Assembly: GCA_015075635.1 (NCBI GenBank)
Contig: JABTUA010000001.1
Location: 620,001-684,000 of the forward strand
DNA length: 64,000 nt
Reading direction: 5' to 3'
Origin: Polyangiaceae bacterium
GTDB lineage: Bacteria; Myxococcota_A; Polyangia; Polyangiales; Polyangiaceae
The position numbers and the translations under genes were made by a program. Below, one piece after another: positions 5,113 through 6,941 of the stretch (within the stretch, counting starts at the first letter, position 1; each line of letters begins with the position of its first letter). The notes beneath the pieces were generated by a model. The model was not told where the DNA came from, did no database searches, and worked only from the letters and a program-made list of their open reading frames with translations.

Positions 5113-6087
5113 GTGCCAAGCGTGGACGAACGGACGATCCGACAGGCCCTGAGCCACACCCTGGACAAGAGCGACTTCCCCGAGCTCGGGAAGAAGTACG
5201 AGGGCAAGGTCCGCGACAACTACAGCTCGGCGGACGGCAAGCGCTACATCGTCGTCACCGACCGCATCAGCGCCTTCGATCGCATCCTGGGCACGCTGCC
5301 GCTCAAGGGTCAGCTCTTGAACCACGTCGCCGCCTGGTGGTTCGAGAAGACCCGCGAAGTGGCGCCGAACCACGTGATCGCGGTGCCCGATCCGAACGTG
5401 CTGATCGCCCACGAGTGCACGCCGCTGCCGGTCGAGATGGTGGTGCGCGCCTACCTCACCGGCACGACCTCGACGAGCATCTGGGTCCACTACGAGAGCG
5501 GCGCTCGCAGCTTCTGCGGCCACGCCCTCCCCGACGGCCTGAAGAAGCACCAGCGCTTGCCGGCGCCCATCCTCACCCCGAGCACGAAGGCAGCCAAGGG
5601 CGGCCACGATGTCTCCGCCAGCCGCGACGAGATCCTCGAGCTCTCCGGCATGCCCGCCGCGGACTTCGACGCCGCCGCGGCCATGGCCATGGCGCTCTTC
5701 GCCGCCGGCCAACGCATCGCCGCCGAGCGCGGCCTGATCCTGGTCGACACCAAGTACGAATTCGGCAAGACCCCCGACGGCCGCATCGTGGTGATCGACG
5801 AGATCCACACGCCGGACTCTTCGCGTTACTGGAAGACCGCCACGTACGACGAGCGTTTCGCGGCTGGGCGCGACCCCGAGAGCTTCGACAAGGAGTACCT
5901 GCGCCGCTGGCTCGCCGAGCGCGGCTTCACGGGAGACGGGCCGATCCCTGCGATCCCCGACGACATCCGAGTCGAAGCGACGAAGCGCTACCTGGAAGCG
6001 ATCGAGACGCTGACAGGTGAGGCGTTCGTGCCGAATCTCGAGGAGCCGATCGCGCGGATGCGCCGGAGCCTCGGGCTCGCGGGCTGA
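5113..6087 (+). CDS. purC: Phosphoribosylaminoimidazole-succinocarboxamide synthase
   Basis: 324 aa, GTG start. PurC joins aspartate to CAIR with ATP to give SAICAR in de novo purine synthesis, in the cytosol. Recognisable blocks in order: GKVRDNY (phosphate loop, about residue 31), TDRISAFD (about 49), GQLLNHVAAWWFEKT, PVEMVVRAYLTGTTSTS (about 110), LVDTKYEFGK (about 208) and DEIHTPDSSRYW (about 228). The length fits the longer bacterial/yeast-type enzyme. It stands apart from other pur genes. Its last 16 codons and the following 30 bp are duplicated imperfectly 822 bp downstream, beyond a DUF559 gene (see repeat features). Confidence 0.95.
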   Translation: MPSVDERTIRQALSHTLDKSDFPELGKKYEGKVRDNYSSADGKRYIVVTDRISAFDRILGTLPLKGQLLNHVAAWWFEKTREVAPNHVIAVPDPNVLIAHECTPLPVEMVVRAYLTGTTSTSIWVHYESGARSFCGHALPDGLKKHQRLPAPILTPSTKAAKGGHDVSASRDEILELSGMPAADFDAAAAMAMALFAAGQRIAAERGLILVDTKYEFGKTPDGRIVVIDEIHTPDSSRYWKTATYDERFAAGRDPESFDKEYLRRWLAERGFTGDGPIPAIPDDIRVEATKRYLEAIETLTGEAFVPNLEEPIARMRRSLGLAG

Positions 6088-6119
6088 GGCGTCGGCAGAG
6101 AGTTGCGCAACGACGCAAC
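6040..6119 (+). repeat. Direct repeat copy A: purC 3' end
   Basis: These 80 bp include the last 16 codons of purC, its stop and 30 bp beyond. They match 6862-6941 with 13 mismatches by my count and no gaps. The DUF559 gene lies between the two copies. Confidence 0.8.
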
Positions 6120-6137
6120 GACGCAACGACGCAACGA
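6102..6137 (+). repeat. Short 8-bp tandem repeat after purC
   Basis: The unit AACGACGC is repeated about four times directly after purC. Part of the first unit lies in direct-repeat copy A. No function is evident. Confidence 0.7.
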
Positions 6138-6175
6138 AAGAAGAAGTCTTTGTCTCAGAGGCAGAAGCGCCTCCG

Positions 6176-6541
6176 TCAGCCCACGAGAGCGTCCCTCAAC
6201 TGCCGGAGCGCGACCGGCAACGCGCGAAGCACGAGCTCCGCGTCGAGCCTGAGCACCCGGTAGCCGAGCTTCGCGAGCTTGCGATCGCGACGGGCGTCGG
6301 CGGCGCACCGACCCCGGTGGGCGCTGCCGTCTACTTCGATGACGAGCCACGCCGAGGTCACCACGAAGTCGGCGATGAAGTCCCCAATCACCACCTGGCG
6401 TCGCACCTCGACGCCGAGCTGACGGGCGCGCAGCGCACGCCAGAGCGCGGCCTCCGACGCGGTGGGCGCGGCACGCATCACGGCGGCGCGGGCGGCAAGA
6501 AGCTGTTGGCGGCGGAGCTGTTGGCGGTCGCGAGCGAGCAT
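6176..6541 (-). CDS. DUF559 endonuclease-like protein
   Basis: 121 aa from ATG 6541 (the frame is open upstream to 6604). It has the DUF559 pattern related to the Vsr/restriction-endonuclease fold: SEAALWRALRARQLG, then VRRQVVIGDFIADFV (catalytic-type D in the IADF segment) and LVIEVDGSAH (E-V-D-G-x-x-H), ending with LGYRVLRLDAELVL. Such small proteins often occur alone and scattered between genomes, and most are uncharacterised. It converges on purC and lies between two copies of the purC 3' end, suggesting it arrived on a mobile segment. Its DNA target is unknown. Confidence 0.75.
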   Translation of the reverse strand: MLARDRQQLRRQQLLAARAAVMRAAPTASEAALWRALRARQLGVEVRRQVVIGDFIADFVVTSAWLVIEVDGSAHRGRCAADARRDRKLAKLGYRVLRLDAELVLRALPVALRQLRDALVG

Positions 6542-6782
6542 GGTTCCTCCGAGGCCCGGCGTGGTGGGCGGGCTTCGCGACCCAGGGCGCACGATCTGTG
6601 ACACGCCGCCCCATTGCTGCTCGAGCGCGCAGACGCGGGCGAGCTCACCATTACGCGTCAGCTCACCGAGCGGCGTGGCGCAGAGCGTGCGCCGATGAGC
6701 GGAGCCCGACCGCCACGCCGGGCCGAGGAACCACCAGCCGCTCGTGGTGCTCTGCGACGACGCTTCGGTCTAGGAGCGACCC

Positions 6783-6821
6783 GTCTTCCCCATTCGGGCG
6801 AAGCCCGAATTTGGGGAAGAC
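6783..6821. repeat. Long inverted repeat, possible terminator or mobile-segment hairpin
   Basis: The arms GTCTTCCCCATTCGGGC and GCCCGAATTTGGGGAAGAC are complementary apart from a 2-nt bulge, around a GAA loop. No T-tract follows, so it is not a classical intrinsic terminator. Confidence 0.75.
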
Positions 6822-6861
6822 CGACGCCGCGAAGCGGCGGCGAGTTGGGGCAGGAAGGTTG

Positions 6862-6941
6862 GAGGAGCCAATCGGAAGGATGCGGCGGAATCTGAGGCTC
6901 GCGGGCTGAGCCGTCGGAGGAGAGTTGCGCGACGACGCAAC
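6862..6941 (+). repeat. Direct repeat copy B: displaced purC 3' end
   Basis: Degenerate copy of 6040-6119 (about 84 percent identical by eye). It retains the purC reading frame to the stop codon but has no purC body before it. Confidence 0.8.

Follow-up and report, generated by a model that had tools for sequence, protein, structure and literature searches.

A DUF559 nuclease unit between purC and a displaced purC end in a Polyangiaceae bacterium: a probable homing-type mobile element

In the 64,000-nucleotide stretch of a Polyangiaceae genome analyzed here (the window), purC is separated from a second, displaced copy of its own 3' end by a 750-bp unit, and the sole recognisable open reading frame between the repeated ends is a DUF559 nuclease gene; the unit contains no recombinase or integrase gene (Table 1). 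We consider it probable (roughly 0.6) that this unit moves as a free-standing element of the homing type, which would invade genes at their 3' ends and supply each with a replacement, the resident end being left on the far side of the unit. What we observe with a bearing on mechanism is anatomy, relatedness and substitution pattern only, and homing of the unit into purC is the best inference from these sequences rather than a demonstration.

Table 1. Features of the purC locus, with positions in the window
Feature	Position	Strand	Basis
purC (SAICAR synthetase), host gene; last ~48 bp a putative replacement end	5113..6087	+	Pfam PF01259 E 7e-66; relatives compared
Repeat copy 1: end of purC as now present, its stop, and the first part of the unit's left end	6040..6119	+	repeat comparison
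Unit left end: CGACGCAA tandem repeats, then AAGAAG-type sequence	6088..6175		common to other units
DUF559 / Vsr-like nuclease gene, 121 aa; E30, D58, E69, D71, H75 kept	6176..6541	-	Pfam E 9e-25; 30-protein alignment; model pLDDT 91.5
Region upstream of the nuclease gene: conserved promoter side, long imperfect palindrome	6541..6736		inverted repeat, unit alignment, RNA folding
Unit right end: covarying hairpin and terminus GAGTTGGGGCAGGAA	6781..6856	+	unit comparison, covariation, pattern search
Displaced genus-type purC end including stop	6859..6909	+	repeat and relatives comparison
Apparent left-end remnant following the displaced purC end, which points to a previous occupant	6910..6941	+	second repeat half; left-end identity from other units

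The purC locus and its two gene ends

The 80-bp direct repeats with 13 mismatches reported in the initial annotation (6040-6119 and 6862-6941, spacing 822) were confirmed; they align without gaps at 84% identity, far beyond chance (BLAST E = 1e-19 in a search within the 3.3-kb locus). As had been described, they cover the purC C-terminus, the stop and a stretch beyond, the first copy consisting of the final 15 codons and stop (48 bp, 6040-6087) followed by 32 bp, and both the DUF559 gene (its Pfam match lies above the cut-off) and a long hairpin, an imperfect inverted repeat at 6541-6578/6699-6736, lie between them. In the displaced copy, whose last 32 bp are the beginning of a left end, homology extends 3 bp further leftward (TTG, 6859-6861), where the sequence is like that of congener G001 and unlike the present purC.

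Comparison of the regions downstream of purC in relatives, proposed at the outset, covered 30 loci: only at the window locus do the 1.5 kb downstream contain a second copy of the purC end that is convincing, and there is a DUF559 match within the purC flank at the window and G002 loci only. In congeners G001 and G002 the displaced purC ends sit on contigs other than that of purC, and because gene order downstream of purC is not conserved there, no clean empty purC site can be read in these two genomes. Junction positions within purC vary among the three congeners. Behind purC of G132, a member of another genus, lie short tandem repeats and AGAAGAAGTC, in a style like that of the unit's left end (L258, 1260-1500).

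Sequence comparison makes the displaced purC end look native, whereas the one now in use looks foreign. In a 36-bp alignment, 31 positions of the displaced end agree with each of the two congeners, against 30 and 28 for the current end, although the gene ends compared in this study are short (36-141 bp), with few substitutions, and composition may contribute. The current end is the closer of the two to 27 of 32 purC ends from outside the genus, a resemblance that may be due to GC-rich codons; its best outgroup match (32/36) is to G132, and in the purC body G132 and the window have only 74% identity, as against 86-87% for the congeners. The same purC unit did not turn up in any possible donor species. 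For uppS, one of the further loci described below, the two ends are almost equally close to the congeners (108 for the current and 112 for the displaced end, of 141), and the native end is not discernible.

Differences between current and displaced ends are mostly synonymous (synonymous:nonsynonymous 6:3 for purC in the window, 7:0 for purC of G001 and 12:5 for uppS; a MoxR-like pair has 1 difference in its coding part), which suggests that the displaced ends diverged as working gene ends. Polarised with relatives, changes on the displaced branch are 8 synonymous to 2 nonsynonymous, where the neutral expectation is about one quarter synonymous (P ~1e-3, or 0.005-0.015 with ambiguous sites counted against). 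The genus-like displaced end and these mainly synonymous differences support the initial proposal of an element that, on insertion at the 3' end of a gene, carried in a substitute for that end.

The unit, its nuclease and its dispersal

Units of this family have a recurring order, namely 8- to 9-bp tandem repeats and AAGAAG, nuclease gene, conserved promoter side, palindrome, hairpin and GAGTTGGGGCAGGAA, and the displaced gene ends begin at this fixed right end. Positions 6088-6146 of the window have a 93% match near another DUF559 copy (C1:2815165). RNA from 6541-6862 folds with z = -7.8 relative to shuffles, and the compact right-end hairpin (6785-6819) shows covariation, with changes on both sides in 5 of 20 pairs; a search with the hairpin pattern returned 13 copies in this genome and 5 and 6 in the two congeners, and 0 in the reversed control. 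The Rfam GA-cis RNA aligned to 6779-6861 over its full length at a sub-threshold score (19.7 bits against a gathering value of 34.7), which we take as chance or a lead. At L012 (527-1449) the right part of the unit is present in three tandem copies of ~312 bp each, without the nuclease gene.

The nuclease gene most likely starts at ATG 6541, preceded by GGAGGAACC, and the five residues listed in Table 1 are invariant across the aligned proteins. These acidic and histidine residues, together with the predicted fold, bear out the expectation that DUF559 proteins are Vsr-like: the closest structure to the model is 3hrl (Z 14.4), with Z 12.2 for I-Bth0305I (3r3p) and 9.8 for E. coli Vsr (1cw0). 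A profile search gave 3hrl at 1e-27 and I-Bth0305I at 8e-5. By sequence and predicted fold, the window nuclease is therefore related to the catalytic domain of the EDxHD (Vsr-like) homing endonuclease I-Bth0305I, a common fold being no proof of function. I-Bth0305I is a multi-domain protein with a ~60-bp target (PMC3943268), whereas the window protein is a single domain that does not have its extra DNA-binding regions, and for that reason specificity is not explained by the homing model. A DUF559 tree neither supported nor refuted a sister relationship of units at the same site.

The genome from which the window derives (9.47 Mb, 5 contigs) has 27 DUF559 matches. In the unit alignment, L003 to L006 are ~99% identical and lie at different sites, which shows recent movement of the unit; signs of mobility, the absence of which had been named in the initial annotation as grounds against the proposal, are thus present. 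Distribution across the order is patchy, DUF559 being found in 69 of 183 genomes and not in the other 114. At some intact units (L006, L018) no displaced end can be seen, and the right end of L003 is interrupted by another insertion: L003 (2185-3304) and L007 (19-1127) have a common insertion of >1 kb that interrupts both right ends at one place, GGCGAG/GCATAAGACGGGGG. A different DUF559 subgroup, represented by L009 (3-1346) and the near-identical L010, L011, L013, L021 and L025 (G000 C2, first ~152 kb), adjoins an IS91-like transposase gene, recognised by inspection, in several nearly identical copies. Searches of plasmids (as DNA) and phages (as protein) gave no match.

Displaced gene ends at other loci

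The same arrangement is found at other genes, whose names, except for purC, come from inspection of translations. In the window's genome a unit separates uppS from a displaced 142-bp copy of its end. Congener G001 has a MoxR-like gene with a 230-bp displaced copy, stacked gene ends at another locus and, on contig C148, a purC end of ~90 bp that abuts a unit right terminus, while G002 has purC ends, some of them decayed, beyond at least four right termini that lie on four contigs. Looser forms of the anatomy, which extend to other genera, include a DUF559 gene among four serial tRNA-Arg(CCG) 3' ends in G159, which belongs to another genus, as well as a gene end present three times around DUF559 (L168) and a decayed gene end 1.3 kb away (L173). 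Within the G159 locus (L220, 76-2860), each tRNA-Arg(CCG) 3' end is preceded by similar right-end-like sequence, around one DUF559 gene. Since the protein-level screen for displaced ends was noisy in this high-GC DNA, only matches also seen as DNA repeats were kept; some of the repeats beside DUF559 genes (L148) proved to be palindromic repeats of the dispersed kind rather than gene ends.

Serial relics in G002 and G159, together with the left-end remnant in the window, suggest that sites have been invaded more than once. The suggestion of homing into purC is accordingly refined in two respects: the family is not specific to purC, as it also occurs at uppS, the MoxR-like gene, others and tRNA-Arg, and the purC site itself appears to have been invaded repeatedly.

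Beside the purC ends of G001 and G002 lie integron-type cassette arrays that have DUF559 units and displaced purC ends within them. Repeated attC-like sites are seen at L253 (5814-13889), L254 (1671-4167), L249, L250 and L251 of these genomes. Probes made from the attC of G001 and G002, a variable element, had no match at the window, uppS, MoxR-like, L168, L173 and G159 loci.

Proposed mechanism, alternatives and significance

Under the homing reading, the nuclease is predicted to cleave target-gene alleles that carry no unit, close to the gene's 3' end. On the side of the gene, the broken DNA would invade a donor allele carried in incoming DNA, and the donor's gene end and the unit would be copied so that they follow the recipient gene in frame. 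The opposite side of the break would be joined at the unit's right terminus, with the resident gene end remaining as a relic. These steps would account for the anatomy seen. Such a unit would cost little because the host gene stays intact, and one site could be invaded repeatedly because the relic would give the next incoming unit homology on that side. By default, we regard selfish spread as the function of the unit.

This reading is favoured because the same right terminus meets displaced ends at purC, uppS, the MoxR-like gene and another gene, because the displaced purC end is closer to congeners and the current one to most outgroup ends, because the protein is related to I-Bth0305I in a unit without a recombinase gene, and because almost identical units occupy different sites. 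It is weakened by the near-equal closeness of both uppS ends to the congeners, by the units without a visible displaced end and by the location of displaced purC ends on contigs apart from purC in G001 and G002.

The main rival, which we judge unlikely, is a long target-site duplication, in which a transposition-like insertion copies 80-230 bp of target and the copies then diverge in place. It would restore the gene at many unrelated loci without a donor allele for each, and it fits the nearly identical coding parts of the MoxR-like pair and the features that both uppS ends have in common and congeners lack. A discarded copy would be expected to decay, however, yet the displaced branch is dominated by synonymous changes, and the genus-like purC copy is the discarded one rather than the one kept. 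We also know of no DUF559 chemistry that makes long duplications. Less probable still is the action of an integrase in trans, a recombinase encoded elsewhere that puts units and cassette material into gene and tRNA 3' ends with DUF559 as a passenger. The 3' ends of tRNAs, and gene 3' ends that receive a replacement, are well-established sites of integrase action, and prophages and islands at the 3' ends of genes or tRNAs (such as e14 at icd) give a replacement 3' end and displace the old one, using their own integrase and one crossover site. The tRNA-Arg array of G159 and the attC-like cassette arrays beside the purC ends of G001 and G002 are consistent with this, but the ~750-bp unit has a nuclease gene and no recombinase, its purC junctions vary among the three congeners and the attC probes matched none of the other loci.

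Very improbable, in our judgment, is ordinary recombination debris, in which the flanking repeat would be a tandem duplication that arose by chance and DUF559 a repair-type nuclease gene standing alone. For this speaks VsrA of Caulobacter, a DUF559-containing protein with a proposed role in mismatch repair (PMC12907096). That one right terminus recurrently meets the displaced ends of several genes unrelated to each other, and does so in three species, counts strongly against the debris reading, as do the many dispersed copies in one genome and their absence from 114 of the 183 genomes.

Among known systems, the DUF559 unit comes closest to the mobile ORFs of fungal mitochondria that bring foreign C-termini, described in Allomyces atp6 and in Glomus atp6, atp9, cox2 and nad3, where identity to a close relative is 91-98% for native ends and 64-81% for inserted ends (PMC3630166). 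In both, an endonuclease gene lies behind the host gene and the native end is displaced downstream (here at purC of the window, uppS and others), and an apparently foreign in-frame 3' end, with a displaced end closer to relatives, is seen here for purC. The mitochondrial nucleases are LAGLIDADG or GIY-YIG proteins, whereas the unit encodes a Vsr-like DUF559 protein on a bacterial chromosome and, unlike the mitochondrial ORFs, has a defined structured right end, dispersed copies and, once, a tRNA target. Intronless homing in T-even phages (SegF and others) likewise involves a free-standing nuclease gene adjoining its presumed target gene and co-conversion of flanking gene sequence, but it is described without a displaced gene end, in phage genomes and with GIY-YIG/HNH nucleases (PMC2988022). 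In the literature searched, mostly papers outside subscription, we found no description of a bacterial DUF559 arrangement of this kind.

A broader generalisation, which we hold tentatively and with some doubt, is that bacterial DUF559 units are widespread free-standing homing elements at the 3' ends of protein and tRNA genes, with donor-end rebuilding, serial relics and integrase-free seeding of islands. To our knowledge, the function of the large DUF559 family is not settled; if homing into gene ends is true, the family gains one, and bacterial chromosomes have a counterpart of the end-swapping mobile ORFs of mitochondria; most known cases of gene-end invasion in this style come from fungal mitochondria. 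A single nuclease, instead of an integrase, may then have given rise to some of the islands found behind tRNA and protein genes, and short horizontal replacements of the C-termini of essential genes would be predicted as a class. The relics left behind units would make the history of invasion readable.
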